Shown: piece after piece, positions 16,230 through 49,990 of the stretch
How positions within the stretch are numbered: the first letter of the stretch is position 1
Layout of the letters: the number at the start of each line of letters is the position of its first letter
Assembly: GCA_030272585.1 (NCBI GenBank)
Contig: BSYQ01000007.1
Span: 1,058,001 to 1,122,000, forward strand
From: Bryopsis sp. KO-2023
Lineage: Eukaryota > Chlorophyta > Ulvophyceae > Bryopsidales > Bryopsidaceae
DNA: 64,000 nt
Direction: 5' to 3'
The notes under the pieces: generated by a model
Database searches by the model: none
Seen by the model: the letters and a program-made list of their open reading frames with translations, nothing else
What the model was told of the DNA's origin: nothing
Program-made: the position numbers and the translations under genes

Positions 16230-16287
16230 ACAAAACACAGAGCATAACAAAACAAGCTTGTGGCAGAGCATCTGAACTGAGCTATCG

Positions 16288-17049
16288 ATGGATGTGACTT
16301 GCAGAGCTCTTGTGACATTCCTGCTGGGCATTGTGGTCGGGGCTTACCTTGGGAGGAGCTCGATCGGTTGTGGGAGCGCCAGCGAGGTGGTCTCACCCGT
16401 GGTGCCTACTGTAGAATATTACTACGGTAGGTACTACGGTGAGATTGCCGTGGAGATGTGGAACCGTTCGCTGGAGCGGAAATCCAAGCTGGTGAGCATT
16501 GATTTGAGTGTGTATTGTGTCGCCTTTTTGAGGTGCCACTGATATTTCTTATGTTTGCTGTGAACAAAGTTTCCAGCTGGAAATGAATCTGCAACATCAA
16601 TAGTGAAGCACATCGATAATAAAATACAGGCTCCCTCCTTTTCTACAAGGCTGATCATGATGGATCCATGAGATCATGATTTTTGTGGGTCAATGCATCA
16701 TGATTTGACTGTTTGTTGTGCTTTTTTTTTTCACTTGAAATTGTAGACCTGCCCCATACCGCCCAGTGAAGTGGACCCCAGAATCGTGTTTTGGACGAAG
16801 GTGATCATCATCTACATCCTCAAGAAGCTGATCCCTGTCTTTTTGATGATTTTGGCCAATCTGGGATCCAAGCTGGTGCTCCTCAGGAAGAAAGGAATCA
16901 AAAAGCTTAGTGCGAGACGTCGAAGAAGAAACCCCCCAAACCAAAACAATAACCCGCTTCTGTACCGAAAAAAACAACCAAAAGTACGAACTACGAGACG
17001 GGTGATAAGAAGGGATGGAGCTGCTCCATCCTCCTCTTCTTGCCAGTAA
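16288..17049 (+). CDS. Small basic membrane protein of unknown family (left copy)
   Basis: Two exons join in phase: 16288-16491 and 16747-17049, giving 168 residues. Start is MDVTCRALVTFLLGIVVGAY. The N-terminus holds a hydrophobic helix (about residues 6-21). A Tyr-rich EYYYGRYYGEIAVEMWNRSL segment follows, then a second helix region in exon 2 (VIIIYILKKLIPVFLMILAN) and a strongly basic tail with an NPPNQNNNPLLYRKKQ block, ending in SSSSCQ. Topology is probably two membrane spans with a positively charged tail. No known domain is recognised. The gene is repeated on the other strand at 49190-49961; the exon structure is the same, which supports it being real. Confidence 0.72.
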
Positions 17050-17189
17050 AAAAATTATACCCGCCCCCGGCAAGAAAAAAAAAGCCGAAATTCAGGCTAT
17101 TTTTTTATATTTGAAACAACATCATCATCATTGATTCTGATTTGATCACATTCCCCTATTCTCCTTTGATGGGTCAGTTTCTTGCCGGG

Positions 17190-17560
17190 GGTAAAAAAAA
17201 AAAAAAAAAAAAGAGGGGAAGGGAATTTTTTATTTGGGGTAACAATGATGGGTAACTTTCCGGCCTTAATTTCCACTACGGGTTCAAAAAAAAATCAAAA
17301 ACAAGAAAAGAGGGGAAGGGATTTTTTACTTGATGTAACAATAACGGGTGAACTTTCAGACCTTATTTTCCACAGCGGGTAAAAAAAAAAAAATCAAAAA
17401 CAAAAAAAGAGGGGAAGGGAAGGGAATCTTTGGGATGATGACTTTTGATGAAATTCTGGACCTTATTTTCCACAGCGGGTAAAAAAAAAAATCAAAAACA
17501 AAAAAGGAGGGGAAGGGAAGGGGATCGAAATTTTGGACCTTAATTTTCATTATAAAAGGG
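17190..17560. repeat. Minisatellite, about 95 bp unit, left arm
   Basis: About four degenerate units each contain an A-run, AAATCAAAAACA, a GAGGGGAAGGGAA block and a segment that on the other strand reads CCCACAGTGGAAATTAAGG. The same unit occurs about seven times in the right arm (48391-49060), so array length differs between the arms. This strand is purine-rich. Confidence 0.85.
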
Positions 17561-18105
17561 AAAAGGGAACAAATTTAAATCTGGTATGAACTACGTATTG
17601 TATAATTGAGAGAAAATGGGATCGTATGGCTTGGGGGTTGTGTTGGATTTCTCTCCCTGAAGTCCATGTGATGGGTCAATTTTCTGTATGAAAAAAACAA
17701 AGGAGGGAAAAAAGGAAGAGTCGAAATTATGTGTGAAAAAAACAAAAGAAGAGAAAAAAAGGAAGGCCAATTTTCTGTGTGAGAAAATACAAAAGTGGAG
17801 GGAAAGAGAAAGATTATATTTTCTGTACGAAAACAAGAAAAAGGAGAGAGAAAGAAGGAAGACTCGACTTTATGTGTGAAGAAAAAAAAACAAGAGGAGA
17901 GGGGAAAAAAGGAAGAAGTAAATTCCTTTGTGAGAAAAATGAAAAGGAGAGAGGAAAAAACAAAAAAAACAAAAAAAACAAGGAAGGGTGTTGCTTTTAA
18001 AGGAAATGAGTTTTCTATTAAAATAAAAAAAGAACAATGGTTTCAGTCAAGAAAAGGGCTGAGTATTTGGTAATGGAATGAAGGTAAATCTTTATTTTTT
18101 TCAAA
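17561..18105. other. Purine-rich low-complexity stretch (left arm)
   Basis: AGAGG/GAAAA-rich sequence with open frames made almost only of Lys, Glu and Arg codons; these are composition artefacts. The matching stretch in the right arm is present twice in tandem (about 47210-48270). Confidence 0.6.
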
Positions 18106-19119
18106 ATGTTGGGTAAAAAGGGGCAGACCTTTTTTGATTTTGGTATCCAGAAATCTGGGGGTATCAATGAAGGAAACCCATATTTTTTCAAAAAGTTCTG
18201 GAGCTGTGGAATTTTTGAAATTGTGGATTCTTGGGATATTCCAGTAACTGGATCAACGATGTTGGATGATGCTGCAAAAAGAGATTGTTTTGGGCCAAGA
18301 GACAGAAGTTGTCTAGTAATAGAAAAACTCCCACCGTCTAGATTTCCTCCAATCCCTCCCCCTCCTGGAAGCGGGGTGGGCAGTGAGGTGGTCAGAAGCC
18401 GGGAGGAGAGTTTGTACGACTAAACAACACAATCGGCCCAGCAATCGGAAATGCAGGACGGAGAATATACTCAAGGATGACTCTTCTTGAGATACGAAGA
18501 GATAAATTTCTGCTGAGGTGCATGGGTGGAGATGCCCGAATTTGGGCCAAAAAGCGATCGAGGGAGGAGATCAGCCAGGGGTTCTGGAGGATTGTGATTT
18601 ATGGAGAAAAATATGGGAGGCAGGAAGAAATGACCTGGAGCTGCTGTGCCTGATGGTTGGAAAAAATCACGGCAGAGTGAATGAGTCCATGAGGGTCATG
18701 AACATGGAAAGAAAATTGAGAACCCAATTGGGGGTAGGCACATGGGGAGAAGAATTGTGAGATTGAAAAATGTGCGAAAGACACGTGAATCTGTGTCTGT
18801 ATCCTTCGACAGGCGAATTTGGATTTCTGAGTTTGATCCAAGGAAAGAGCACTGTGGTGGAGGAAGAAAAATGGCAGACTTGTGGTGGAAGACTGACAAG
18901 CGGTCCATTTTGTTGAAGAGAATCAATGGCATCGAATCGTGCTCTAGCTGGAAGATTGATGAGGCCCTGTTGAATGAATGCTGCCTCGAGACCTACTGGA
19001 CTCACCACCCTCACAAGCAGCATGGGGGAAAGGATGTGAAGAATGGAGTGGGTCATGGAATGTGTGTCTGCCATGGGTCCGTTACAAATGATAGTTTTGA
19101 AAGCTACAGTGAGGAATGA
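18106..19119 (+). other. Unassigned region with reading frames shared by both arms
   Basis: A 105-codon frame (18106-18423, starting MLGKKGQTFFDFGIQKSGG and ending in a Pro-rich SRFPPIPPPPGSGVG block) is also open in the right arm at 47336-47010. Another stretch downstream (about 18400-18640), in a different frame, reads IGPAIGNAGRRIYSRMTLLE and then ARIWAKKRSREEISQGFWR, which looks protein-like. A 125-codon frame (18742-19119) follows. In the right arm a small deletion disturbs the second stretch. These may be exons of an unrecognised gene or remains of an old coding element. I cannot choose, and no domain is recognised. Confidence 0.35.
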
Positions 19120-19791
19120 GGGTTGTGATGAACAAATTATGTGAAGAATTGATCCATGGCACAATCAATTTTTGTCTGCTGTTGTTTTCCTTGTCAGTGA
19201 TCTCCATCCAGATTTGACAGGAACCAAAGTATTTATTTCCATTTCTGGGAGGGGGGGGATTGGATGCTGGATCAGCAATAGGAAGAAAAATCCTTGCATA
19301 CCCCCTTATGCAACCAGAAAAAAACAACAACAAAAAAACACAGGCTTGATCACTCCTCGTGGTTCAGTATTTTACACTGCTTCTGCACCCTCTCCGAAAT
19401 GATGTTAGAATAATCGTAAAAAGGGTTTGTTTCGACAGCCGGGGTCTCAACCAGGTTCCAAGAGTGGTCCAGGTATCTCTTGAAAAAGTTACAAGTCCCA
19501 ATGAACAACCCGATAGCATCATGATTAGCTCATCCACCCAACAAAACAACTGTTTGTGAAAGTTGGTTAGACAATAATCAACCTGACACATCAACAGAAG
19601 CCTCCCCCATGTGCTTCTTATCTTTTCCCTGGTAATGCTGCCAAGTGAAAATCGCCCCAGCGCTTCCGAATCTCTTTCCATTTTTGTCAAATATTGAGGG
19701 CCGTTCCCCGAAACAGCCAAGAGGAAGCTGAAGGGGCAACTCTCGACAAGAAAAATGATGGTGGATTCCTTAAGACTCCAGACACATCCAT
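19120..19791. other. Unassigned arm sequence
   Basis: No supported gene. It is conserved with insertions and deletions in the right arm (about 45454-46320) and lies just past the stop of the coiled-coil gene, so part is probably its 3' flank. Confidence 0.35.
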
Positions 19792-22700
19792 TCAAAGTTC
19801 AAATGAAATGAGCACACTGCCGTTTCGACCAATTGGCAACCCTCTTAAGCTACTTTTTTTTATCCTTGCATTGGATCGAATGTTTGCAAAGGTTTGTTTG
19901 AATGCCAGCCAACCATCCACATATCGAAGGTGATTCTGGCAAAACAACACCGACTTTGCCTGGTTTACATCCACCCCAGCCAGCGGCTGCAAGAAATGCT
20001 CCAGTCCACATGGCGATTTTTGAAGAAAATCAGTCAGCCCCTTTTCAGAAGCATTGAATGCTGGAAACTGCAAGCTGCTCTGTGGGACTTCTTTGGATGG
20101 CGCCACAGTGGTGACGACTGGTATAAAAAACAAGTTGGAAGAAGCTCCCACTCTTAATTTTCCAATCCAAAAAGCTTGATTGCAGCGAATGGCTTTCTCC
20201 ATCGAAAAATGTTTTGTGCACTGGACACACTTCTGAGGAAAAAACAATTCCAGCTTTGCTTGGTAATGGAGCAAGGTACCTGAAAAGCCGACCAAAAAAA
20301 AACACACAATGCTCTTGGCAAATTTCCAGCGAACGGCCACAAAAGCAACAGACGTTTCAAACAAAATCAAGAAAACAAAACGCATCAGAAATCTCACCAC
20401 CAAAAGCCCCCTCGCATGAATTGAAATGCAAAATGAATCCAGCACAGATCTTTTTTCTTTTTTCTTTCAATGGTGGGTTAAAAACCCACCATTATTGCCA
20501 GAACTTGAATGTAGCGCCCTTCCATGTGCGATGCGGTGGGGTCAAGACCCCCCACCCTAGCAAAACCCATCAAATCGTCTCTGAATATCTGATCCACACA
20601 CTTGCAAAAAAAAACCTGGTTTTATTCAAGATAGAATTAACCACGAAATGAAAGATTCAAAGGGGGATGAGCAAACCAATGTTCCACCAAGAAAACGAAC
20701 GAAACCCCTCCAAACAGAAACGAAAGCAATACCTACCACCTATTTCCTTCCACCTCCTGCAGTTCTTCATTTGTTTTGAACTTGTGAGTGAGACAATGGA
20801 CGCGAGCACTGCGAAAGCACTCGGAACCTTTTTCCATGCTTCTTTTTGCCCACCAATCTCTGTGGAAAAAAATGCAGGTGAAAAATACAGTCAGCGTTGA
20901 AAACGTAGCCTCAGAAAATCACTCGGACAAAGGTGAGTTTCACAATTGCCAAAAAAGGGTTTTAACCGAAAAACGATTTCAGGAGCGTATTACAGGGAAG
21001 CTTTTCGGAAACAAAAACTAGTGGATCTTGTATCACTTGCAATTCCTGCACTGTTTTGCTTGTTTGCTTGTTCGTTTCAATACCTTTGGATTTTCAGGTT
21101 GAGGTCCAGTACAACCTGTCTCCTCCTCAACACCCTCCTTCTTCGCAATAGCCCCATCCACTTTCCCACCATCAGGATTCTTTTCTCTTTCATGGTCAGA
21201 TTTCGCAACGGACTCACCACCAGTATTGACCTCAATCTGAGTCTTGACCTCAATCTGAGATTCCACCTCCTTAACCCTCAATTCCGGGAATTCCTCATTC
21301 TTCAAAAAAAATCTCCTCTGACCGCTCCCCTCCTCTGTTTTTTTGTCTGCTTCACCTGAAGTCAACACAGAAATCGACACACTTGAAAAATTAAATAAGC
21401 AGAAACACAATGATGCAACTCTTTCCTTTCCCCATTATGCCCTTTAGCCTCAGCAATTCAAAAAACCATACGATATTTTCCTACTGCAATGTGCCATAAT
21501 CATCAACTCTAAAACGAAGGTGTCCACACACAAGAAAAAACCTGACTGACCTCCATCTCGTTGCTTCCCACCGTTTTCGGCTTCTTCAATCGGTGTTTCG
21601 CTTTCGATGGGTTTTGTTTCGTTGATCCTCTCTTCGACCAGGCCACCCTCCTCCTCCCCTTTAAAAACTTGACGCAATTCTTCCTTGATTTTTTCCACTG
21701 GAGTTTCAACATGAATATCAGCCTTCACTTCCTCTTGCTGAAAGTTTTCAATCCTTCCACCTTCTTCAAAAATTTCATTTTCCTCATCATCAACCTCCAC
21801 ATCAGCCAGCTGCTTCTCCTCAACATCCTCTGAGAAAACACACATGTTTTCGTAACATAATAACAAATTGTAAAAACAAAATAAAAAAAGAAAAAGAAAA
21901 TCCTCCAGCAGAGTTCGCAAGCTAAATCATGTCCATCGTTTTTTTTAAATCAATATCACCTACACAACCAACCCAAACTGTCCTGTGCACTCAAAGCTAT
22001 TTGATGGAGGTATGGATCTGTTTTTGTACAGAAATCCAAGGTTGTTCGAAAAACCGGCCGCCAGAAAAGTGAAAACAAAAAGGAAAGATGACAGCAAAAG
22101 AAGCGCACTCCTTTCTGTGCATTTTGTTCGCATACCTTTTGGAGCCAGTCTTGTCGTGATCTCCTCCATTGCCTCGTTGGCCAAATGAGCTGCAATTCGC
22201 AGGTCCTCAACCGTCATCATCACAGGATTTGTCCGCTTTTCCTGGAGTTCAAAATTTTCCGCACGGAGCTCCCTCTCCTTGATGATGGCCTCCTCAAGGT
22301 GTTCCTCCAAATCCCACTTCTCCTCCATGACTTGATGAAAAGAGCGCTCAACTCTGCGTTTCTCCTCCTGCAGCTTGCCCACCTGAAAAGATCCCAAGTA
22401 TCTGATTTCAATGGAGTGCATCCACAGCACCACAGCAAAACTGCCCTCCACACATGAAATCAAATCATATATAGGGCAGAACAGCAAACTGTATGAAACC
22501 ACTCCGACGAAATTTTCAGAAAACAGGCAAACCATGGGCATTGAACATCCGTGTGGATCAACCTGAGGATAATTTGGAACACAACTTGGTTTTTCATTTC
22601 CCGTTTGTGTCCTATTAAAGTCGAAGCCATATAGAGCAGCATGCGTCTCATTCTCACCTCCTCTTTGTGTCTACGTTTTGCTCGTTCCATTTCGGATCGC

Positions 22701-23419
22701 AAATCCGCAATTGTTCCCATGAGGAGCTTTTTTCCTTCTTTCATTTCCTCTTCTTTAGCTCCACATCGCTTGGTCAAGTCACAAATGACGAAAGATTGCC
22801 TGTTCCGTTCATCTCGGAGTGCCTTGACTTCCACCTCCGCCTTCTCCCTCCGTCCAATCTTGGTGTTTCAAAAAGAAAAAAAATGTTGTCAAAAAATTTC
22901 CCATCCTTTTGAGCCAGTTTCAGCCCTTTTTTTTGTGAAAATCAGGGTGCTACTCTTATTGATACTGGATATGGAGCAGCCAATCCATTTCCATGTGGAC
23001 CTTCCAGAGAAGCCAAGGACAATCACAAAGATTCAAGAGGATTACAACATTTCGTCATTTGGTGGAATTACAACATCAAGTTGTTGCAACTGAAAATGAA
23101 AATGAAAATTGTGTAGGCCAGCAAGGGCAATTTTTGTTCCAAGACTCACTTCAATGTTTCTCTGTTCATTTACGTCGGCCACCTTGGCAGCCAGTCTTCC
23201 GAGTGCCTCCTTCATTGTTTTGATGTCCACCTTCAGTTGCACCACCTCCGCCACCGCCTCCCTGACGGGAGCTACTGCTTCAATTTGATCCTCTTCCACT
23301 TCCAAAACGACTTCACCACCCTTCTTTCTGTTTTCCTCCTCCTGGTAGAAATCCTCGACCAGTCTGGATAGCTTCAAGACTCTTTCTAAACGGAAGAACT
23401 TCAGAACCGACGAATACAT
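19792..23419 (-). CDS. Coiled-coil protein, unknown family (left copy, intact)
   Basis: Seven exons join in phase: 23419-23150, 22858-22658, 22382-22136, 21829-21551, 21355-21084, 20857-20737 and 20279-19792, giving 625 residues. The start is MYSSVLKFFRLERVLKLSRL. Residues 1-240 are mostly coiled coil (RREKAEVEVKALRDERNRQ, the KLQEEKRRVERSFHQVMEEK block). A very acidic middle follows (EDVEEKQLADVEVDDEENE), then PDGGKVDGAIAKKEG, a short hydrophobic stretch in exon 6 (SAFAVLASIVSLT) and a Cys- and Phe-rich last exon (FPQKCVQCTKHFSMEKAIRC). No known domain is recognised. The gene is head-to-head with RPL7A, 235 bp apart. Exons 1-5 are well supported by phase and by the second copy; exons 6 and 7 are less certain. 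Replacement differences between the two copies are common, so the protein evolves fast. Confidence 0.72.
20469..20556. repeat. Two adjacent short palindromes in an intron
   Basis: At 20469-20493 the sequence AATGGTGGGTT is followed by a 3 bp loop and its perfect inverse. At 20535-20556 GGTGGGGTC, AA, GACCCCCCACC forms a second near-perfect hairpin. Both fall in the last intron of the coiled-coil gene and recur in the right arm (about 44765-44842), the first with a single change that leaves one G-T type mismatch. Confidence 0.8.
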
Positions 23420-23654
23420 GTTTGCTCTTTCTGCTGTGAAAAACTCGCGCGACAAAAAAAGCAGGAACACTGCCGATTGGCCTAAACTTAAGCATGTGGG
23501 AAAGAAAGCGTCGTACATGACAGTCAGACGCCTGGTGTTGGAACGGAGGCCAAAATTCGGCGGTGTGGTTACGATCGCGTCAATTCTGCGAGGAGGGAGT
23601 CGATACCGGGTTCGAGAGGCTAAGAAGTTTTGTGGAGGAGAGTAGGAAGCGGAA
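23420..23654. promoter_or_regulatory. Divergent promoter between coiled-coil gene and RPL7A (left)
   Basis: Only 235 bp separate the two start codons (23419 minus, 23655 plus). The segment has no TATA box that I can see, and an inverted CCAAT motif (GATTGG) lies at 23475-23480. Between the arms I count about four differences over this stretch, far fewer than in the neighbouring coiled-coil exon, consistent with functional constraint. Confidence 0.7.
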
Positions 23655-25171
23655 ATGGTGAGGGTCTGGGCCGACGGCGCCGGTTTTCGGTTGAGTTTCT
23701 AAGAGTGCATCTTTTCTCGAGTGTGTCTAGAATCCTGTTTTTCCCTGATTGCGCGTTCGTGGCGACGGGATCAGTGGTTTGTTTGTTTTTTCCCTGTTTC
23801 AGGCCCCCAAGAAGAAGGCTGCTGCTTTGCCCTCGGGCGTGAGGAAGGTACTACTGCGGAGAGCCTGAAACTGTGATCGATTGAGCATTTGTTTGGTTGA
23901 GAAACGGTGTTGTGGGCTGAGGGGGGGCCTTCGGCATTGCCCCCCCTTCGAGACTACACTCCAACGAGTTACACCCCTTTCCATTCCTTTTCGACTCGCA
24001 GGCCGGCACCCGAGGCAAGAAGAAGAAGGAGGACCCCTTCGAGAACCTCTATGAGCCTCAAACCAAGTCATTTGGTGAGTTACTGGTTTGTGTGCATTTG
24101 AAATCTCAAGCAAAACCATCCCCAAAACCATTTCCTAACGATGGCCATCCACCCTTGTGCTTGATTGGGAAGTATAGGATTTGACTGTGCGGTTTTTTTC
24201 AGGTGCGGGTGGGATTCCCTACCCCAAGCATGACATGCATCGGTGGGTGAGGTGGCCCAAGTATGTGCGAATTCAGAGGCAGAGGAGGGCCCTGGGCATG
24301 AGGCTCAGTGTGCCTCCGGCCATCAATCAGTTCTCGCACACTTTCGACAGAAACCAAGCCGTGCATTTGTTCAAGCTTCTCATGAAATACAGGTATAAGA
24401 AAACCCCTCAAAAAAACCTCTCCTGCGTAACTCATTCCCACCACTGTGTGGATCTTGAGAGGGGTTCTTTTTCCAAAACAGGCCAGAGGACCGGAAGACC
24501 AAGCAGCTCAGGCTTCAGAAAGAGGCGGAATCCAGAGCGTCTGGAATGGAGGTACTGCACACAATTCCCTTGGTTCAACTGGCAAGGCTGTATCGTTGGA
24601 CTGGATGAAAGCAACAATGCTGTGTTTTTTTTGTGGTTGGGGATGGCAGATTGAGAAGAAGAAGCCTATGTACGTGAAGTATGGTCTCCGAAATGTCACC
24701 AACTTGATTGAGTCTGGAGAGGCGCAGTTGGTGGTCATCGCTCACAACGTGGACCCCATTGAGCTCGTGGTCTGGCTGCCAGCTCTGTGCAAGAAAATGG
24801 ATGTCCCATACTGCATCGTCAAGGTAATGTTTTATTTAATTGCAACAAAAGACTGTCCAAAATATACTTCCCTGGACACGTCTAACACCTCCAGCGGTCA
24901 GTGGTGGTGATTGGGTTTGATTTCTGCGCAGGACAAGTCGCGTCTGGGAACGGTGGTCCACAAGAAGACTGCAGCGGTGCTTTGCCTGACGGCTGTCAAG
25001 AACGAGGATCAGCGTGAGTTCACCAAGGTGGCCGAGAGTGCCAAGTCCATGTTCAACGATGGAAGCAGAATCGGATGGGGTGGTGGTGTCTTGGGTCCCA
25101 AGTCCGCGCACGCTCTCAAGAAAAAGGAGAGGGCTCTGCAGAAGGAATTGGCCAAGAGAATGCAGGCATAG
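23655..25171 (+). CDS. RPL7A: 60S ribosomal protein L7a / eL8 (left copy)
   Basis: Seven exons join in phase: 23655-23657 (the ATG alone), 23803-23847, 24002-24074, 24203-24392, 24482-24551, 24650-24823 and 24932-25171, giving 264 residues, the usual length. The N-terminus is basic ([15 protein letters not shown]). The body has [20 protein letters not shown], the PPAINQF block, the L7Ae/L30e RNA-binding core ([20 protein letters not shown], then [12 protein letters not shown]) and [17 protein letters not shown], ending in KELAKRMQA. It is a structural protein of the large ribosomal subunit. The exact ATG-intron arrangement, with the start codon alone in exon 1, is a common ribosomal-protein design. 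No key residue is missing, so the copy looks functional. Confidence 0.98.
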
Positions 25172-25262
25172 GCGGTTTTCGGTGGTGGTTTTGTTGGGCT
25201 TGGGTGCCCTGCATGTTATATGATTTGGCGGATGTAATGGATTGGTGGTCATATCTCAGCTG

Positions 25263-25682
25263 CAGCTATTAAACAAGGATTGTGCAGGGTAGCCACGGTA
25301 GCAACTGCAGTTCTGGTGAGCTTGCATCTTGAATGCATGCAATGCCTGTTTGAGAAAACACTCCAGGGACTTGGCATTTGATGCCTGCTGCCACTGAGCA
25401 TTCCATGTGGATTTGGAATGTGTGGGAATGGCAATATCCAAACCAGGCACATGAATATTTTCTTAACGAGAATAAGCTGAACATGAACACGTTACCAGCT
25501 AATTTTGTGGCCTCTTTCGGCCACCATCGCAAACACTCCTGAGAAGACTAGCTGAGTTATCACTCTTATTCTTACACTTTCTGCCTGAAAGAAAAAACTA
25601 CATGCATGGGTTTATTGGACCTAATAAACCACCAAGAGAATTTTTTTACGACTCTTTGACTGCAAATCAAATTCCGGACACT
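25263..25682. other. Intergenic just inside the left arm
   Basis: This is unique sequence beginning at the inner breakpoint of the inverted duplication. It contains the 3' flanks of RPL7A and of the convergent minus-strand gene. No gene is seen. Confidence 0.4.
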
Positions 25683-27008
25683 CTACTGCAATGGCATCTT
25701 GCCCCGACAAAACAACTTGGACAGAATTTTCCTTGACTTGGTGTGTTTGGCTTGGGGCAATTGAATATTCCTCCGTTCCATTGCAGTCCCACTCTCGTGG
25801 GCAGTGATCTCTGGTTGTGGCCTCCCTGTTTGAATATGCCGCAAGGGAGGTCTGACCTCGTGGAATCTGGCATCCTTGATTTCCACGACTTCATCTTGTG
25901 TTTGAGGTAGCTCCACCACCTCTGGGTCATGATTCAAGGTGCAATCAGAAGAGGGAATCTCGTTGGTGGTCACTGCCCCGTCTTCAACTGATTGAAGAGC
26001 AGAATGTGCGCTGGCCAAATCGACTTTCACTGTGCCCTCATCACCAGGGTATGTGAGCACCAACTTGACCAACCCGCAAAGTTCAGAGGCCGCCAGGTTC
26101 TCTTCAGTATTGGAGGGGCTCGCTGACTTATCAACAACGATTTTTATTTCTTCCACCTCGATTTCGTCCGTGGAAAAGCCGCCTGGTGCCTCTTTCTCGG
26201 CGCTCGGACGGGGGAGCTTCAAGTGGACGGGGTCTGTTCCATCACCAGTGCACGAGAAATCGATAACGACCTGCGCGGATCCTTGTTTCGCTACACTGGG
26301 CGTCTCAGAATCTGTCAAACTCCTCAGCACTTCTGCGGCGGTGATCTCATTGGTGACAGGAATGCTGCAAGTCACAGAGACGGACCCTTCTTCCCAAGCA
26401 AGTTCCACCGTGCTCCGGACTGACTCGAGGACAATCTGAGACGCTGTTCTTCTCAGCGAGTCTGGCGCCATTTTCTCCTCGAGGATAGAGGATTCGTTGC
26501 AAGAAGTAGAACGCAGAATCGATCCCATAGTATGCCCGAAACTTTCCTCAGTTTCATTCCCAATCGCAACAGCTTTACCAACGCGCTCCGCCATCCTTGC
26601 CCGAAGAGCGGGCGTCTCGTAGGATTTCCCATGCACATTCCTTGCCCAAGCGTTGCTCTTGTTCCTTTGCGGCGCAAGGGAGAACGCTGAGTTCAAAGCT
26701 GCAGTCGCTTTTTCATCAACCTGGCCATTCCCCGTGTCTCTCGTCTTTCTCTTCAGCAATGTCGAGCACGTGTGTTTCATGTACCTCGCCGTGACCCCGG
26801 TCAAGTCGTGGTTCAGGCTCTTCCCAATATCGACCACTGTGCAGTTCTTGACGATAGCATTCGGCGAAAGTGGTACTACGCTAACCCATTCTTGGCTCCC
26901 CACTCGACCACCCTGTGCCCTGTACAGACCAGGGCGGCCGAGTTTTGAAAGAGGTTGGGGCTCTCTGTTGACAAGAGCAAGAATCTGTTCCGAAGGAGAG
27001 ACGGCCAT
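25683..27008 (-). CDS. Hypothetical intronless protein, 441 residues
   Basis: One uninterrupted frame starts at ATG 27008 (MAVSPSEQILALVNREPQPL) and ends KLFCRGKMPLQ. The frame stays open further upstream without an ATG, so a spliced 5' exon is possible. The N-terminal third is the most protein-like (LGRPGLYRAQGGRVGSQEW, then VVDIGKSLNHDLTGVTARYM and a KHTCSTLLKRKTR stretch); the rest is acidic, Ser/Thr/Glu-rich and probably disordered. A repeated theme of predicted beta strands appears in VELAWEEGSVSVTCSIPV, AQVVIDFSCTGDG and GLVKLVLTYPGDEGTVKVDL, spaced about 90 residues apart, suggesting three related small beta units. No family is recognised. Lack of introns is unusual next to its intron-rich neighbours. 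Confidence 0.7.
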   Translation of the reverse strand: MAVSPSEQILALVNREPQPLSKLGRPGLYRAQGGRVGSQEWVSVVPLSPNAIVKNCTVVDIGKSLNHDLTGVTARYMKHTCSTLLKRKTRDTGNGQVDEKATAALNSAFSLAPQRNKSNAWARNVHGKSYETPALRARMAERVGKAVAIGNETEESFGHTMGSILRSTSCNESSILEEKMAPDSLRRTASQIVLESVRSTVELAWEEGSVSVTCSIPVTNEITAAEVLRSLTDSETPSVAKQGSAQVVIDFSCTGDGTDPVHLKLPRPSAEKEAPGGFSTDEIEVEEIKIVVDKSASPSNTEENLAASELCGLVKLVLTYPGDEGTVKVDLASAHSALQSVEDGAVTTNEIPSSDCTLNHDPEVVELPQTQDEVVEIKDARFHEVRPPLRHIQTGRPQPEITAHESGTAMERRNIQLPQAKHTKSRKILSKLFCRGKMPLQ

Positions 27009-27782: not shown

Positions 27783-27812
27783 GGCTATCATGATTTGAAC
27801 TCGAACACAACA

Positions 27813-28396: not shown

Positions 28397-28553
28397 AAAT
28401 AGAATTCACTGGAAAAAAAAAACCAGCAGTCGCCACCACCACCTACAGTAGAGTCCATAAACAAATCGAGCAATACAAGAGCCCCCCCCCCCTTTTTCTG
28501 TTTGTGTTCTTGCCAGACCACCCCCACACAGCTCTCTATATCTAATGACACAC

Positions 28554-34868
<6,315 letters not shown>

Positions 34869-39379: not shown

Positions 39380-40260
39380 GGCTGTCCACCAGAAATCTGC
39401 GTAGACCTTCAAGAACGCGCCTGGAGGTCTCTACCCACCAGCGCGGAAATTCTTTCGCTCTTCGAGGAGCGTTTCCTTTTCTTTTCTTCCGATTTTGGGG
39501 GGTCCGGCTTCAATTCGATTCTTTTGGTGCTGGCCGTATCGTTCTCGGCCCAGGGGCATTCGGAGCCTTTTTCCCTCCCTTTGTGAAACTCTGGCCCACA
39601 CCCCTCGACCGAGGATTGTTGCGCAAAGTCTGGCACACTTGCATCTCGACGTGACCTTTCGAAATCGCAGAGCTGTCCGTCCGATTGCCGCCATAGTTTG
39701 CGATGAGACGGGTGACTGTGTTGTGGGAAGCGGGCCTTGAGGAAGTTTGGGTGTCGATTCGCCTTTGTGGAATAAATCAATCTGAAATCATCTGCCCCAG
39801 AGGAGAACGCTCCCTTGCCCAGATGAAAAACCCTGCATAAGAGGAGAGGAGATCTCTGTTGGGTGTCGATGCATCTCGCACTTGGGATATAGACATCTAT
39901 TATTTGACTATTTTGGATGCTGATCGTACAATCGTCTGCGAAAGGTGTGAGGCGTCAGGATAGCTTGACAGATCTAATGTAGTGCGTTGTGTCTTCCTTG
40001 CTTCATCCCATCAAGAACAACGATTTTCCAAAGTTGGATACTTCAGTCCCCAAGTAGCCACTCCCTAGCCAAGGGTAAACCCAATACTTTGTAGGGGTGT
40101 GCAAGTTACTTGGGAAGCTTGATTTGGGGATACAGTTTTTTTTGGGGGGTATTGAAACAATGCTTCCCTCCCCCACCATTGTGCAGGGTAGGGCAGGGGA
40201 CCTGCATTGTTGCAGTTTGAATTTCCGGGAGGACAGGTACAAGAGCGCTCCTTTTGGGCA
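39380..40260. other. Intergenic between VTC4 start and the right arm
   Basis: This probably contains the VTC4 promoter and, toward 40.2 kb, unique sequence next to the inner breakpoint of the inverted duplication. No gene recognised. Confidence 0.4.
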
Positions 40261-40351
40261 CAGCTGAGATATGACCACCAATCCATTACATCCGCCAAAT
40301 CATATAACACGCAGGGCACCCAAGCCCAACAAAACCACCATCGAAAACCGC

Positions 40352-41865
40352 CTATGCCTGCATTCTCTTGGCCAATTCCTTCTGCAGAGCCCTCTCCTTT
40401 TTCTTGAGAGCGTGTGCGGACTTGGGACCCAAGACACCACCACCCCATCCGATTCTGCTTCCATCGTTGAACATGGACTTGGCACTCTCGGCCACCTTGG
40501 TGAACTCACGCTGATCCTCGTTCTTGACAGCCGTCAGGCAAAGCACCGCTGCGGTCTTCTTGTGGACCACCGTCCCCAGACGCGACTTGTCCTGCGCAGA
40601 AATCAAACCCAATCACCACCACTGACCGCTGGAGGTGTTAGACGTGTCCAGGGAAGTATATTTTTGACAGTCTTTTGTTGCAATCAAATGAAACATTACC
40701 TTGACGATGCAGTATGGGACGTCCATTTTCTTGCACAGAGCTGGCAGCCAGACCACGAGCTCAATGGGGTCCACGTTGTGAGCGATGACCACCAACTGCG
40801 CCTCTCCAGACTCAATCAAGTTGGTGACATTTCGGAGACCATACTTCACGTACATAGGCTTCTTCTTCTCAATCTGCCATCCCCAACCACAAAAAAAACA
40901 CAGCATTGTTGCTTTCATCCAGTCCAACGATACAGCCTTGCCAGTTGAACCAAGGGAATTGTGTGCAGTACCTCCATTCCAGACGCTCTGGATTCCGCCT
41001 CTTTCTGAAGCCTGAGCTGCTTGGTCTTCCGGTCCTCTGGCCTGTTTTGGAAAAAGAGCCCCTCTCAAGATCCACACAGTGGTGGGAATGAGTTACGCAG
41101 GAGTGGTTTTGAAGGGGGGGTTTTCTTATACCTGTATTTCATGAGAAGCTTGAACAAATGCACGGCTTGGTTTCTGTCGAAAGTGTGTGAGAACTGATTG
41201 ATGGCCGGAGGCACACTGAGCCTCATGCCCAGGGCCCTCCTCTGCCTCTGAATTCGCACATACTTGGGCCACCTCACCCATCGATGCATGTCATGCTTGG
41301 GGTAGGGAATCCCACCCGCACCTGAAAAAAACACAACGATCAAATCCTATACTTCCCCAGCAAACACAGGGTGGATGGCCATAGTTGGGAAATTTTGGGG
41401 ATGGTTTTACTTGAGATGTCAAATGCACACACTGTGGCAAGAACTCACCAAATGACTTGGTTTGAGGCTCATAGAGGTGCTCGAAGGGGTCCTCCTTCTT
41501 CTTCTTGCCTCGGGTACCGGCCTGCGAGTCGAAAAGGAATGGAAAGGGGTGTAACTCGTTGCAGTGTAGTCTCGAAGGAGGGGCAATGCCGAAGGCCCCC
41601 CCTCAGCCCACAACACCGTTTCTCAACCAAACAAATTGCTCAATCGATCACAGTTTCAGGCTCTCCGCAGTAGTACCTTCCTCACGCCCGAGGGCAAAGC
41701 AGCAGCCTTCTTCTTGGGGGCCTGAAACAGGGAAAAAACAAACAAACCACTGATCCCGTCGCCACGCGCAATCAGGAAAAAACAGGACTTTAGACACACC
41801 CCAGAAAAGACGCACTCTTAGAATCTCAACCGAAACCCGGCGCCGTCGGCCCAGACCCCTACCAT
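40352..41865 (-). CDS. RPL7A: 60S ribosomal protein L7a / eL8 (right copy)
   Basis: Seven exons of exactly the same lengths as the left copy: 41865-41863, 41721-41677, 41521-41449, 41321-41132, 41041-40972, 40873-40700 and 40591-40352, giving 264 residues. By hand comparison the protein differs from the left copy only at Asn to His in the DPFENLYEP segment of exon 3; I noted only a handful of silent changes. Intron 5 appears identical between copies, whereas intron 3 has several substitutions and small indels. Both copies keep all splice sites and look functional. Confidence 0.98.
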
Positions 41866-42101
41866 TTCCGCTTCCTACTCTCCTCCACAAAACTTCTCAG
41901 CCTCTCGACCCCGGTATCGACTCCCTCCTCGCAGAATTGACGCGATCGTAACCACACCGCCGAATTTTAGCCTCCGTTCCAACACCAGGCGTCTGACTGT
42001 CATGTACGACGCTTTCTTTCCCACATGCTTAAGTTTAGGCCAATCGGCAGTGTTCCTGCTTTTTTTGTCGCGCGAGTTTTTCACAAGCAGAAAGAGCAAA
42101 C
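41866..42101. promoter_or_regulatory. Divergent promoter between RPL7A and coiled-coil gene (right)
   Basis: A 236 bp spacer between start codons 41865 (minus) and 42102 (plus). It is nearly identical to 23420-23654, including the CCAAT-type motif. Confidence 0.7.
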
Positions 42102-45100
42102 ATGTATTCGTCGGTTCTGAAGTTCTTGGGTTTAGAAAGAGTCTTGAAGCTAGCCAGACTGGTCGAGGATTTCTACCAGGAGGAGGAACCCAGAAAGAAG
42201 GGTGGTGGAGTCGTCGTGGAAGAGGAAGAGGATCAAAGTGAAGCAGTAGCCCCCGTCAGGGAGGCGGTGGCGGAGGTCGTACACCTGAAGGCGGACATCA
42301 AAACAATGAAGGAGGCACTCGGAAGACTGGCTACCAAGGTGGCCCATGTGAATCAACAGAGAAACATTGAAGTGAGTCTTGGAACATATTGCCTTTTCCA
42401 GGCAATTTTCATTTTCACTGGGTGCACAATGAACTGGCATGCACTGCACTGATTGAAACAACTTGATGTTGTAATTCCACCAAATGACTGAATGTTGTAA
42501 CTCTCTTGAATCTTTGTGATTGTCATTGGCTTCTCTGAAAGGCCCACATGGAAATGGATTGCCTGCCCCATATTCATTTTCAATAAGAATAGCACCCTGA
42601 TTTTCACAAAAAAAATGCTGAGACTGGCTCAAAAGGATGGGAAGTTTTTTGACATTGTTTTCTTTTTCTTTTTGGAACACCAAGATTGGACGGAGGGAGA
42701 AGGCGGAGGTGGAAATCAAGGCACTCCGAGAAGAACGGAACAGGCAATCGTCTGTCATTTGTGACTTGACCAAGCGATGTGGAGCTAAAGAAGAGGAAAT
42801 GAAAGAAGGAAAAAAGCTCCTCATGGGAACAATTGCGGATTTGCGATCCGAAATGGAACGATCAAAACGGAGACACAAAGAGGAGGTGAGAATGAGACGC
42901 ATGCTGCACTATATGGCTTCGACTTTAATAGGACACTCCCCCTGGCATCTCACTTTTTTTTTGCTTTGATCTTTTCAGGTGGGCAAGCTGCAGGAGGAGA
43001 AACGTAGAGTGGAGCGCTCTTTTCATCAAGTAATGGAGGAGAAGTGGGATTTGGAGGAGCACCTTGAGGAGGCCATTATCAAGGAGAGGGAGCTCCGTGC
43101 GGAAAATTCTGAACTCCAGGAAAAGCGGGCAAATCCTGTGATGATGACGGTGGAGGACCTCCGAATTGCTGCTGGGTTGGCCAACGAGGCAATGGAGGAG
43201 ATCACCACAAGACTGGCTCCAAAAGGTATGCGAACAAAATGCACAGAAAGGATTGCGCTTTTTTGCTGTCGTCTTTCCTTTTTGAATTGACTAAGAGGCT
43301 TTTTCGAACAACCTTGGATTTCTGTACAAAAACAGATCCATGCCTCCATCAAATAGCTTTGAGTGCACAGGACAGTTTGGGTTGGTTGTGTAGGTGATGT
43401 TGATTTAAAAAAAACGATGGACATGATTTAGCTTGCGAACTCTACTGGAAGTTTTTCTTTTCTTTTTTTCATTTTGTTTTTACAATTTGTTATTATGTTA
43501 CGAAAACATGTGTGTTTTCTCAGAGGATGTTGAGGAGAAGCAGCTGGCTGATGTGGAGGTTGATGATGAGGAAAATGAAACTTTTGAAGAGGGTGGAAGT
43601 ATTGAAAACTTTCAGCAAGAGGAAGTGGAGGCTGATATTCATGTCGAAACTCCAGTGGAAAAAATCAAGGAAGAATTGCGTCAAGTTTTTAAAGGGGAGG
43701 AGAAAGAGGATGACTTTGTCGAAGAGAGGATCGAAGAAACAAAACCCATGGAAAGCGAAACACCGATTGAAGAAGCCGAAGACGGTGGGAAGCAACGAGA
43801 TGGAGGTCAGTCAGGTTTTCTAGTGTGTGGACACCTTCGTTTTAGAGTTGATGATTATGGCACATTGCAGTAGGAAAATATCGTATGGTTTTTTGAATTG
43901 CTGAGGCTAAAGGGCATAATGGGGAAAGGAAAGAGTTGCATCATTGTGTTTCTGCTTATTTAATTTTTCAAGTGTGTCGATTTCTGTGTTGACTTCAGGT
44001 GAAGCAGACAAAAAAACAGAGGAGGGGAGCTTTCAGAGGAGATTCATTCTGAAGAATGAGGAGTTCCCGGAATTGAGGGTTAAGGAGGTGGAGGTGGAAT
44101 CTCAGATTGAGGTCAATACTGTTGGTGAGTCCATTGCGAAATCTGACCATGGAAAAGAAAAGAATCCTGATGGTGGGAAAGTGGATGGGGCTATTGCGGA
44201 GAAGGAGGGTGTGGAAGAGGAGACAGGTTGTACTGGACCTCCACCTGAAAATCCAAAGGTATTTAAAAAAAAACAAATAAAAAAAGAGTGCAGGAATTGC
44301 ACTGAAACAAGATCCACAAGTTTCTGCTTCGGAAAAGCTTTCCTGTAATACGCTTCTGAAATTGTTTTTCGGTTACTACCCTTTTTTGGCAATTGTGAAA
44401 CTCACCTTTGGCCGAGTGTTTTTCTGAGACTTCGTTTTCAACGCTGACTGTATTTTTCACCTGCATTTGTTTTCACAGAGATTGGTGGGCAAAAAGAAGC
44501 ATGGAAAAAGGTTTCGAGTGCTTTCGCAGTGCTCGCGGCCATTGTCTCACTCACAAGGTCATAACAAGTGAAGAACTGCAGGACTTGGAAGGAAATAGGT
44601 GGTAAGTATTGCTTTCGTTTCTGTTTGGAGGGGTTTCGTTCGTTTTCTTGGTGGAACATTGGTTGCTCATCCCCCTTTGAATCTTTCATTTCGTGGTTAA
44701 TTCTACCTTGAATAAAACCAGTTGCATGTGTGTGGATCAGATATTCAGAGACAATTTGATGGGTTTTGCCAGGGTGGGGGGTCTTGATCCCACCGCATCG
44801 CACATGGAAGGGCGCTACATTCGAGTTCTGGCAATAATGGTGGGTTTTTAATCCACCATTAAAAGAAAAAAGAAAAGAGATCTGTGTTGGATTCATTTTG
44901 CTTTTCAATGCATGCGAGGGGGCTTTTGGTGGTGATATTTCTGATGCGTTTTGTTTTCTTGATTTTGTTTGAAACGTCTGTTGCTTTTGTGGTCGTTCGC
45001 TGGAAATTTGCCAAGAGCATTGTGTGTTTTTTTTTGGTCGGCTTTTCAGGTACCTTGCTCCATTTCCAAGCAAAGCTGGAATTGTTTTTTCCTCAGAATT

Positions 45101-45453
45101 GTATCCAGTGCACAAAACATTTTTCGATGGAGAAAGCCATTCGATGCAATCAAGCTTTTTGGATTGGAAAATTAAGAGTGGGAGCTTCTTCCAACTTGTT
45201 TTTTATACCAGTCGTCACCACTGTGGCGCCATCCAAAGCAGTCCCACAGAGCAGCTTGCAGTTTCCAGCATTCAATGCTTCTGAAAAGGGACTGACTGAT
45301 TTTCTTCAAAAATCGCCATGTGGACTGGAGCATTTCTTGCAGCCGCTGGCTGGGGTGGATGTAAACCAGGCAACGTCGGTGTTGTTTTGCCAGAATCACC
45401 TTCGATATGTGGATGGTTGGCTGGCATTCGAACAAACCTTTGCAAACATTTGA
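42102..45453 (+). CDS. Coiled-coil protein, unknown family (right copy, shortened)
   Basis: The same exon plan as the left copy is seen: 42102-42371, 42685-42885, 42979-43225, 43524-43805, 43999-44258, 44481-44601 and 45050-45453. The sixth exon has an in-frame TAA at 44562-44564 where the left copy reads a lysine codon, so this copy should end after about 447 residues, just past the short hydrophobic stretch SAFAVLAAIVSLT. The last exon, if used, also ends 28 codons earlier than in the left copy. Exon 1 shows about 20 differences in 270 bases against the left copy, about 14 of them replacing residues, so selection is weak. Either this copy is losing its C-terminus, or the real protein ends near exon 6 and the left copy has been extended. 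Confidence 0.65.
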
Positions 45454-46320
45454 TCCAGTGCAAGGATAAAGAAAAGTAGCTTAAGAGGGTTGCCAATTGG
45501 TCGAAAGGAGTGAGGAAAGGGATAGGAAAAGGATGTATTTGTGGTAATGGAAGACATGCAACCACTGGATCTTGTTGGGAAGATGTACCGAACGTCCAAA
45601 TGAACTGGTGGTGCTTGTGTTGGCGACTGAGACTCCACGCTTTGTGGGTCAAATGAAACAAAGAGTTTTCAAGAGTCAAGAGTTGTCAAGAGTTTTCCCC
45701 TGGCTGCCTCTTCAGCTTCTTCTGTTGGTGGGGTGGCTGTTTGGGGTATGGCCCTCAAAATTTGAACAAAAATGGTTTTTTTAACCAGTCAGGAGTGCAG
45801 GGTCAATCCTCACTTGGGAGGGCAGGGCAGGGGGTATAGCTTAACCAGGGAAAAGATAAGAAGCGCATGGGATCTGTTGATGTGTCAAGTAGATTATTGT
45901 CTAACCAACTTTCACAAACACTTGTTTTGTTGGGTAGATGAGCTAATCATGATGCTATTGGGTTGTCCATTGGGACTTGTAACTTTTCTGAAGACATACC
46001 TGTACCACTCATGGAACCTCGTTGAGACCCCGGCTGTCGAAACAAACCCTATTATTCTGACATCATTTCTGAGAGTGTGAAATACTGAACCACCAGGAGT
46101 GATCAGGCCTTTTTTTTTCTGGTTGCATAAGGGGGTATGCAAGGATTTCCTTCCTATTGCTGATGCAGCATCCAATCCCCCCCTCCCAGAAATGGGAATA
46201 AACACTGTGGTTCCTGTCAAATCTGGATGGAGATCACTGACAAGGAAAAACAACAGCAGACAAAAATTGATTGTGCCATGGATCAATTCTTCACATAATT
46301 TGTTCATCACAACCCTCATT
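45454..46320. other. Unassigned arm sequence (right)
   Basis: This is the counterpart of 19120-19791. Some frames are open but they change between the arms by indels. No supported gene. Confidence 0.35.
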
Positions 46321-47336
46321 CCTCACTGTAGCTTTCAAAACTACCATTTGTAACGGACCCATGGCTGACACAAATTCCATGACCCACTCCATTCTTCACA
46401 TCCTTTCCCCCATGCTGCTTGTGAGGGTGGTGAGTCCAGTAGGTCTTGAGGCAGCATTCATTCAACAGCGCCCCATCAATCTTCCAACTGGAGCACGATT
46501 CGCTGCCATTCGTCAACAAAATGACTGCATGTCAGTCTTCCACCACAATCTGCCATTTCTTCTTCCTCCACAACAGTGCTCTTTCCTTGGATCAAACTCA
46601 GCAAATCCAAATTCGCCTGTTGAAGGGGGGTGTGACTTGACAATACAGACACAGATTCACGTGTCTTTTGCACATTTTCCAACTCACAATTTTTCTCTCC
46701 ATGTTCCTACCCCCAATTGGGATCTCAATTTTCTTTCCATGTTCATAATCCTCATGGACCCATCCACTCTGCCGTGATTTTTTCCAAGCAACAGGCACAG
46801 CAGCTCCAGGTCATTTTTCCTGTCCCCCACATTTTTCTCCATATTTCACAATGCTCCAAAATCCCTGGCTGATCTCCTCCCTCATTTGCTTTATGTCTTA
46901 AATTCTGGCATCTCCACCAGCAAAAATTTATCTCTTCGCATCTCAAGAAGAGTCATCCTTGAGTATATTCTCCGTGCTGCATTTCCGATTGCTGGGCCGA
47001 TTGTGTTGTTTAGTCGTACAAACTCTCCCCCCGGCTTCTGACCACCTCACTGCCCACCCCGCTTCCAGGAGGGGGAGGGATTGGAGGAAATCTAGACGGT
47101 GGGAGTTTTTCTATTACTAGACAACTTCTGTCTCTTGGCCCAAAACAATCTCTTTTTGCAGCATCATCCAACATCGTTGATCCAGTTACTAGAATATCCC
47201 AAGAATCCACAATTTCAAAAATTCCACAGCTCCAGAACTTTTTGAAAAAATATGGGTTTCCTTCATTGATACCCCCAGATTTCTGGATACTATGGATACC
47301 AAAATTAAAAAAGGTCCGCCCCTTTTTACCCAACAT
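46321..47336 (-). other. Unassigned region with reading frames shared by both arms (right)
   Basis: This is the counterpart of 18106-19119. The 108-codon frame at 47336-47010 (starting MLGKKGRTFFNFGI) matches the left-arm frame closely with an added three codons. A deletion of about 10 bp near 46.92 kb breaks the second protein-like stretch seen in the left arm. Confidence 0.35.
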
Positions 47337-48270
47337 TTTGCGAAAAAAATAAAGATTTCATTTCATTGCATTACCAAATACTCAGCCCTTCTCTTGACTG
47401 AAAAAAATACATCTATATATTTTTTTTTGATAGAAAACTCATTTCCTTTAAAGGCAACACCCTTCCATGTTTTCCCTTTCCTCTCTCCTTTTCATTTTTC
47501 TCACGTGAAAAATTATTTCTTCCCGTTTCTCTCTCCTCTTGTTTTTTTTTTCTTCACACATAAAATCGACTCTTCCTTTTTTCTCTCTTTTTTCTTGTTT
47601 TCACACAGAAAATATAACCTTCCTCTTTCCCTCTCCATTTGAATTTTTCTCACACAGAAAATTGGCCGTCCTTTTTTTCTGTTCTTTTATTTCTTTCACA
47701 CATAATTTCGATTCTTCCTTATCCCCTCCTTTGTTTTGTCTGTGGATATAACAGACAAAACATCCACAGACTCAAACATTCCACAATGTCTAATTCTCAA
47801 ATAATCCACAGCTCCTTTTTTCATAATCTGGGTTTCCTTCATCGATACCCCAAAATTTCTGGATACCAAAATCAAAAAAGATCTGCCCTTTCTACCCAAC
47901 ATTTTGAAAAAATAAGGATTTACCTTCATTGCATTATCAAATACTCAGCCCTTTTTCTTGACTGAAACCATTGTTCTTTTTTTTTAAATAGAAAACTCAT
48001 TTCCTTTTAAGGCAACACCCTTCCTTGTTTTTCCTTTCCTCTCTCCTTTTCATTTTTATTTTTCTCACGTAGGAATTTACTTCCTTTTTTCCCCTCTCCT
48101 CTTGTTTTTTTTCTTCAAACATAAAACTGACTCTTCCTTTCTTCTCTCTCCTTTTGTATTTTTCTTCTTCACACATAAAATTGATCTGCCCTTTTTTCTG
48201 ACTCCTCTGTTTTTTTTCACACATACAACTGACCCTTCCTTTTTTCATACAAAAAATTGACCCATCACAT
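47210..48270. repeat. Tandem duplication of about 0.55 kb within the right arm
   Basis: Two diverged copies (about 47210-47740 and 47780-48270) share a CAAATACTCAGCCC block, the GAAAACTCATTTCC block and the TC-rich stretches after them. The left arm has this segment only once (about 17690-18215, inverted). The duplication arose after, or was lost in one arm after, the arm duplication. Confidence 0.75.
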
Positions 48271-48390
48271 GGACTTCAGGGAGAGAAATCCAACACAACC
48301 CCAAAGCCATACGATCCAAATTTCTCTCAATTAGACACCACATATATTTAAATACCATTTAAGTTTGTTCCCTTTTCCCTTTTTTAATGA

Positions 48391-49060
48391 AAATTAAAGT
48401 CTGAAATTGCATTAAAAATTGTTATCCCCAAGATCCCCTTCCCTTCCCCCCTTTTTTTTTTTTTTTTTAGCCCACAGTGGATAATAAGGTCTGAAATTGC
48501 ATTAGAAATCATTATCCCAAAGATTCTCTTCCCTTCCCCTCTTTTTTTGTTTTTGATTTTTTTTAGCCCACAGTGGAAATTAAGGTCCAAAATTTCATAA
48601 AAAATCATTATCCCCAAGATTCCCTTCCCTTCCCCTCTTTTTTTGTTTTTGATTTTTTTTTTAAACCCATAGTGGAAATTAAGGTCCAAAATTTCATCAA
48701 AAATTATTATCTCAAAGATCCCCTTCCCTTCCCCTCTTTTTTTTTTTTTTTTTTTTTTTTTAATAACCCAAAGTGGAAATTAAGGTCTGAATTTTCATCA
48801 AAAAACATTATCCCAAGGATTCCCTTCCCTTCCCCCTTTTTTTTTTGATTTTTTTTTAGCCCACAGTGGAAATTAAGGTCCAGAATTGCATCAAAAAGTA
48901 TGATCCCCAAGATTCCCTTCCCTTCCCCTCTTTTTTTGTTTTTGATTTTTTTTTTACCCACAGTGGAAATTAAGGTCGGAAAGTATTATTATTGTTACCC
49001 AAAAGAAAAAAATCCCTTCCCCTCTTTTTTTTTTTTTTTTTTTTTTGACCCCCGGCAAGA
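48391..49060. repeat. Minisatellite, about 96 bp unit, right arm
   Basis: About seven units each contain CCCACAGTGGAAATTAAGG, a TTATCCCCAAGATTCCC segment and a CTTCCCTTCCCCTC tract with T runs. Plus strand is strongly pyrimidine-rich. The left arm array has about four units. Confidence 0.88.
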
Positions 49061-49189
49061 AACTGACCCATAAAAGGAGAATAAAGGAATGTGATCAAAT
49101 CAGAATCAATGATGATGAAGTTGTTTCAAAATAAAAAAATAGCCTGAATTTCGGCTTTTTTTTTCTTGCCGGGGGGGGTTATAATTTTT

Positions 49190-49961
49190 TTACTGGCAAG
49201 AAGAGGAGGATGGAGCAGCTCCATCCCTTCTTACCACCCGTCTCACAGTTCGTACTTTTGGTTGTTTTTTTCGGTACAGAAGCGGGTTATTGTTTTGGTT
49301 TGGGGGGTTCACCCTTCGACCTCTCGCAAAAAGCTTTTTCAACTTTTTCGCCCCCTTCCCGAGGAGCACCAGCTTGGATCCGAGACTGGCCAGAATCGTG
49401 AACAGGATGGAGATCAGCCTCCGGAGAATGAAGACGATGATCAGCTTCAAGCAGAACATCATCCTCGGGTCCCTTTCGCTTGGTGTTATAGGGCAGGTCT
49501 GCAAGTGTAAAAAAAAGCACAACGAACATTCAAATCATGATGCATTGGCCCACAGAAATCATGATCTCATGGATCAATCATGATCAGCCCTGTAGAACAT
49601 GAGCAAGCCTGTATTTTATTATCGATGTGCTTGACTGTCTATGTTGCAGATCATTTCCAGCAAAACTTTATTCACAGCAAACATAAGAAATATCAGTGGC
49701 TCCACAAAAAGACATCGAAATGCATACTCAGATTAATTGATTGATTGATTTGCTCACCATTTTTGCTTTTCGTTCCAGCGAACGGTTCCACATTTCCACA
49801 GCAATCTCACCGTAGTACCTACCGTAGTAATATTCTACGGCAGGCACCACAGGTGAGACCACCTCGCTGGCGCTCCCACAATTGATGGAGGCCCTCCCAA
49901 GGTAAGCCCCGACCACAATGCCGAGGATGAACGTCAGGAGAGCTCTGCAAGTCACATCCAA
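49190..49961 (-). CDS. Small basic membrane protein (right copy, start codon lost)
   Basis: Two exons correspond to the left copy: 49961-49758 and 49498-49190. The codon matching the left ATG is TTG (LDVTCRALLTFILGIVVG), and no in-frame ATG lies close upstream. Both exons stay open and the splice sites are kept. Many residues of exon 2 differ from the left copy (for example LKLIIVFILRRLISILFTIL), while the C-terminal NPPNQNNNPLLYRKKQ block and SSSSCQ end are unchanged. Translation could start at a non-ATG codon, at an internal Met in AVEMWNRS, or from an unseen 5' exon; otherwise this is a pseudogene. Confidence 0.55.
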
Positions 49962-49990
49962 TATATCGAAAGCTCCGTTCAGCTGCTCTT

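Follow-up and report, generated by a model that had tools for sequence, protein, structure and literature searches.

A gene-bearing inverted segmental duplication with two zones of divergence in the green alga Bryopsis sp. KO-2023

A window of 64,000 bases (GC 45.0%) of Bryopsis sp. KO-2023 (contig BSYQ01000007.1, positions 1,058,001 to 1,122,000; coordinates below count from the first base of this window) was compared with itself by blastn, which identified two long arms in opposite orientation around a block of single-copy DNA. An earlier note made from this DNA had claimed inverted arms of about 9.0 and 9.7 kb; the chain of self-blastn matches bore them out and placed their ends within about 35 bp of those proposed there. 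The three parts of the locus are:

16265-25262, + strand: arm A, delimited by the self-blastn chain and the joint alignment; the old homology may extend to 15744
40261-49989, - strand: arm B, the inverted copy of arm A, delimited by the self-blastn chain; the old homology may extend to 50386
25263-40260, no strand: single-copy spacer of 14,998 bp, without homology to either flank (blastn, E 0.001)

The chain consisted of inverted matches, each with a printed E of 0.0, between 25262-23097 and 40261-42417 (95.6%, 2,173 bp), 23089-22607 and 42453-42936 (93.4%), 22393-19815 and 42968-45512 (94.0%, 2,583 bp), 19633-17694 and 45844-47737 (88.2%), and 17526-16265 and 48717-49989 (83.7%). Over arm A 16265-25262 the arms were 91.1% identical in 8,685 aligned columns, a figure that also counts regions of unalignable inserts, and the joint alignment contained 382 transitions and 388 transversions. 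The longest perfect runs between them were 336, 208 and 161 bp, and an inverted pair at the inner border (113 nt, 98%, copies 14,998 nt apart) was found independently. Similarity of the arms is far beyond chance. The locus has what defines an inverted segmental duplication, namely two long gene-bearing copies in opposite orientation, identity of at least 90% over at least 1 kb, and flanks and a spacer that are unique and unrelated to one another.

Each arm was said in the earlier note to carry the same four-part gene set. Here RPL7A was intact in both arms, a two-exon gene could be aligned in both, and coiled-coil-like frames were present in both; for a fourth gene, in the stretch 18.0-20.4 kb, no convincing evidence of coding was found, so the four-part set is borne out only in part. 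The genes and frames of the arms are:

23655-25171, + strand: RPL7A (eL8) copy A, 7 exons (Pfam Ribosomal_L7Ae E 1.8e-25; best PDB match 60S L8E, E 6e-94)
40352-41865, - strand: RPL7A (eL8) copy B, 7 exons, with one amino-acid difference, N31H
16288-17049, + strand: putative small membrane-protein gene copy A, in-frame model of two exons (16288-16491, 16747-17049)
49190-49961, - strand: putative small membrane-protein gene copy B, two exons (49961-49758, 49498-49190), its start codon replaced by TTG
21036-23518, - strand: coiled-coil-like frames copy A, tentative, divergent from RPL7A, open frames shared with arm B

Both copies of RPL7A are open, with GT-AG borders at six of six introns in each arm, and differ at 8 of 795 coding bases (7 synonymous and 1 nonsynonymous; dS 0.041). 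Plant ribosomes are presumably among the best PDB matches of this gene. A duplicated ribosomal protein gene may have been kept for dose. The putative membrane-protein gene, hereafter the outer gene, was more diverged (dN 0.12, dS 0.27, dN/dS 0.46, Fisher p 0.0028), and two pieces of it gave no match in a Pfam search. Its start is ATG in arm A (16288) and TTG in arm B (49961), exactly where the homology of the arms fades, and the 90 bases upstream of the TTG contain no ATG in frame, so copy B may be in decay or may have its start at another place. Coding evidence for the coiled-coil-like frames (21.0-23.5 kb, both arms) was mixed, pN/pS ranging from 0.40 to 1.34 by frame, and Pfam gave no match above cut-off. 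Structured RNA was considered as a reason for the conserved patches, but nowhere in the window did an Rfam match reach its gathering score; three weak matches in 15700-25300 were all far under the cut-offs.

The arms also contain tandem repeats, at:

17200-17519, + strand: minisatellite of arm A, 97-bp unit, 3.3 copies
48391-48982, - strand: minisatellite of arm B, 96-bp unit matching that of arm A, 6.1 copies

Irregular 47-bp repeats come after the minisatellite in both arms. Unrelated inserts of unequal length lie between similar stretches at 22393-22607 of arm A and 42937-42967 of arm B, where they are probably intronic, and at 19633-19815 and 45512-45844, respectively.

Border alignments agreed with the description in the earlier note of a sharp inner border beside RPL7A and a ragged outer one. 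At the inner border, homology ends at 25262 in arm A and 40261 in arm B with unrelated sequence beyond, 91 bp past the RPL7A stop codon of arm A (which ends at 25171). At the outer border the alignment fades near the arm A start codon of the outer gene, 16288, and a further island of homology follows:

15744-15831, + strand: outer island, arm A side, 86.5% identical to 50299-50386 (E 2e-20)
50299-50386, - strand: outer island, arm B side, 86.5% identical to 15744-15831 (E 2e-20)

Since this island lies outside the faded border, the original duplication was probably at least 9.5 kb long.

Divergence between the arms was not uniform along their length. A changepoint scan divided them into two zones, given here on arm A:

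16288-16929, + strand: outer, strongly diverged zone, 106 of 632 aligned sites different (16.8%)
16930-25262, + strand: inner, probably homogenised zone, 317 of 6,059 scored sites different (5.2%)

The best single changepoint fell at 16929 in arm A and 49310 in arm B with a gain in log-likelihood of 47.6, in a count that included the exons of the outer gene and omitted the coding part of RPL7A, the tandem repeats of 17190-17999 and four blocks that could not be aligned. This gain was reached in none of 300 permutations with 20-bp blocks and none of 300 with 40-bp blocks (p 0.0033 in both, the lowest value that the test can give). Exon 2 of the outer gene contains the switch, with 45 of 183 sites different before it and 3 of 120 after it. 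In the intron of the same gene 38 of 245 sites differ, a number reached by 0 of the 5,556 windows of equal length in the inner zone (maximum 30), and synonymous divergence was 0.27 in the outer gene against 0.041 in RPL7A (Fisher p 1.7e-6). No second changepoint in the inner zone was significant (p 0.18 and 0.27). There was no sign of GC-biased conversion, the GC content being about 0.455 and 0.457 for the inner part of the two arms and 0.452 for the spacer. A two-state hidden Markov fit indicated that differences cluster throughout in clumps of roughly 2-60 bp. Because many differences are clumped, naive tests of unevenness (p about 1e-30 by chi-square in windows of 100 bp, and 0.0005 for the longest run of matches) were dropped in favour of block permutation and the changepoint scan. 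The introns of RPL7A also diverged unevenly (intron 5, 0/98; intron 2, 2/154; intron 3, 17/124; Fisher p 2.6e-7); patchy conversion was considered on this ground and dropped as proof, with merged events giving p 0.035 (gap 5) and 0.13 (gap 10).

As the simplest account, we think it probable, by a little, that the locus, in a nuclear genome rich in introns, arose by inverted segmental duplication and that conversion between the arms later homogenised its inner part. First, a stretch of at least 9 kb with the membrane-protein gene, the coiled-coil-like frames and RPL7A would have been copied in opposite orientation beyond the 15 kb block. Later, the inner part of about 8.3 kb would have been homogenised by gene conversion, seemingly with one arm copied onto the other. 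Such conversion may have come as one long tract or one burst and not as a steady patchwork exchange, since there is no significant second changepoint and inner divergence is even at the scale of 400-800 bp.

Several results weigh against this history. When the exons of the outer gene were omitted, heterogeneity persisted in 200-bp windows (p 0.0005 and 0.016 with 20- and 40-bp blocks, respectively) and faded in larger ones (p 0.019 and 0.12 at 400 bp; 0.067 and 0.21 at 800 bp). For 18000-25262 alone it was significant only in 200-bp windows (p 0.001 and 0.024) and not in those of 400 or 800 bp. Merging of adjacent changes (gap 5 or 10) erased all heterogeneity (p 0.52-0.98), in a procedure that favours evenness in densely changed stretches. 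Exon 2 of the outer gene is more diverged in its first part (24.6%) than the intron of that gene (15.5%), so rapid change of the protein contributes to the signal from the outer zone. A low mutation rate, constraint or selection on codon usage within the inner zone could mimic conversion.

These points bear on a rival history, which we consider unlikely: a single duplication with no later conversion, after which evolution was faster in the outer zone, where a relaxed or accelerated membrane-protein gene adjoins unstable repeats, and slower in the inner zone. The clumping of differences throughout is in its favour, as is the weak or absent heterogeneity once clumps are merged or once the outer exons are omitted and 800-bp windows used, and the outer gene does adjoin a minisatellite whose copy number differs between the arms. 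A difference in rate fits poorly, however, with the outer synonymous sites (0.27) and intron (38/245) being as diverged as coding sequence, and with a change that is abrupt and falls within an exon.

For conversion between such arms the human Y palindrome P6 provides a comparison (here and below, comparisons draw on excerpts of the papers cited). Like the present locus it has inverted arms around a single-copy spacer, and its arms exchange by gene conversion in tracts averaging 2,068 bp with a maximum over 9 kb; unlike those described here, the arms of P6 measure some 100 kb and exceed 99.9% similarity (PMC3723533). Gene-converting palindromes are marked by an arm identity above 99%, against about 95% in the inner zone here and 91.1% overall. 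Any conversion at this locus would have been old or rare, because the inner zone is only about 95% identical.

The spacer might also be turned over by crossovers between the arms, so often that both orientations of 25.3-40.2 kb coexist in the population; such active flipping we regard as improbable. Perfect runs of up to 336 bp make recombination between the arms plausible; a divergence of about 5% should reduce crossover rates, and this one sequence bears no sign of a second isomer. Human HsInv0209, which is polymorphic and likewise flanked by two gene-bearing inverted duplications (7 kb, 94%), is a precedent in its favour; in that case flipping has been demonstrated, and the breakpoint probably lies in a region of 782 bp with 99.9% identity, whereas the longest perfect run of the present locus is 336 bp (PMC3961182). 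In human P6, 3 inversions were counted against 56 conversions (PMC3723533). Since inversions are so much rarer than conversions there, exchange without flipping appears the more likely history here. That the arms pair into a fragile cruciform at a separation of 15 kb is doubtful.

Inverted repeats are frequent sites of assembly errors, and arm B could in principle be a misplaced haplotype or a chimeric join. We consider such an artefact very improbable. The left flank, the spacer and the right flank are mutually without homology in the blastn comparison, and the arms differ by indels, by repeat copy number (3.3 against 6.1) and by a dS that is seven times as high in one gene as in another. Alleles should share flanks; none match here, and the arms are zoned in divergence, which makes a misplaced haplotype unlikely.

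As regards the origin of the arms, duplicative inversion through staggered breaks accounts for it equally well. The spacer would then be inverted relative to an ancestor in which the arms were single-copy, and later conversion would be compatible with this. The anatomy is that of inversion 2h of Drosophila mojavensis (PMC3355041), and the sharp inner border fits a break; a plain inverted duplication, however, yields identical anatomy, and we take staggered breaks to be a possible but less than even explanation. RPL7A was also used in one scan of viral contigs, which gave no related locus.

Breakage at the inner side, which the earlier note had suggested, has a sole hint in a short direct repeat near the two inner borders:

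25279-25292, + strand: 14-bp direct repeat ATTGTGCAGGGTAG, copy 1, 17 bp inside the inner border of arm A
40178-40191, + strand: 14-bp direct repeat ATTGTGCAGGGTAG, copy 2, 69 bp inside the inner border of arm B

The window contains just these two copies of ATTGTGCAGGGTAG. At least 14 bases in the same orientation were shared in 10 of 20,000 random paired 100-bp windows, a frequency of low weight as evidence, with the repeat having been spotted by eye and tested afterwards and with draws less than 200 bp apart having been skipped yet kept in the 20,000. It is conceivable, and in our view exceedingly improbable, that a near-closed palindrome broke at its centre and captured a multi-gene fragment of 14.9 kb, leaving ATTGTGCAGGGTAG as a target-like duplication, and that one conversion tract of about 8 kb afterwards homogenised the arms. 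If true, an unstable palindrome would have been stabilised by taking in a spacer with ARF and VTC-like genes. Four simple patterns found no telomere-like repeats. As regards a transposon with long terminal inverted repeats, the genes in the arms are cellular ones, and no transposase turned up among the spacer pieces run through Pfam, which represent part of the spacer only, no dedicated transposon search having been made.

The locus fits the known range of gene-bearing inverted duplications, with close precedents in Drosophila, herring and human. The segments flanked by such duplications in D. mojavensis are reportedly chromosomal inversions, as against a block of 15 kb here. As at the present locus, a block is enclosed by kilobase-sized inverted duplications of single-copy gene-bearing DNA in inversion 2h of that species, where they measure 7.1 kb and hold three genes, and in 2q, where they measure 1 and 4.3 kb; the ancestral order there, unlike here, is known from D. 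virilis (PMC3355041). Inversions of Atlantic herring are flanked by inverted duplications of 8-60 kb whose identity of 85-99% rises to 95-99% in cores of 7-21 kb, and which resemble the present arms in this two-tier identity; the inversions themselves are of megabase size and are established polymorphisms (PMC11499932). Newborn duplicates of worms often lie next to each other in inverted orientation (PMC2728529). Among the papers listed by a literature search, none reported such a locus in algae or in Bigelowiella natans, a species with a reported GC content equal to the 45.0% of the window (PMC12730881); this is not proof of absence from print.

The locus does not overturn current understanding. 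It joins, as a well-delimited protist or algal case, the few gene-bearing inverted duplications that enclose a spacer, and its two zones of divergence make gene conversion directly testable given the sequence of a relative. Should conversion be true, it would be a simple locus at which to measure long-tract ectopic conversion, and whether this keeps a duplicated ribosomal protein gene uniform; should the spacer flip, it would be a natural two-state marker.

The earlier note had placed unique genes, named as ARF and VTC4, between the arms. That the enclosed genes are unique was confirmed, the spacer having no blastn match to the flanks and containing the following:

28916-31227, - strand: ARF small GTPase gene (Pfam Arf in two exon pieces, E 1.3e-14 and 3.8e-11; the first exons were judged by eye)
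35418-38286, - strand: gene with VTC domain and DUF202, VTC4-like (Pfam VTC E 1e-14 and DUF202 E 5.5e-8, one piece each)
25683-27008, - strand: open frame of 441 amino acids, without Pfam match at E 0.1

ARF was confirmed on two pieces, and the VTC domain and DUF202 on one piece each. The name VTC4 is plausible and unproven, because none of the three upstream pieces of this gene tested in Pfam matched SPX.

Elsewhere in the window, a coiled-coil-like open frame of 1,147 amino acids lies at 10231-13680, its sole Pfam match above cut-off being a coiled-coil model, and contains at 11707-11990 a 42-bp (14-residue) tandem repeat in 6.8 copies. An ankyrin-repeat gene of at least two exons is located at 55205-57242, with Ank above the Pfam cut-off in 56772-57239 and weak in 55205-55975. 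At 5305-5829 there is an exon of an aldo/keto reductase (Pfam E 3e-13) with an N-terminal extension that looks targeting-like, as judged by eye only.

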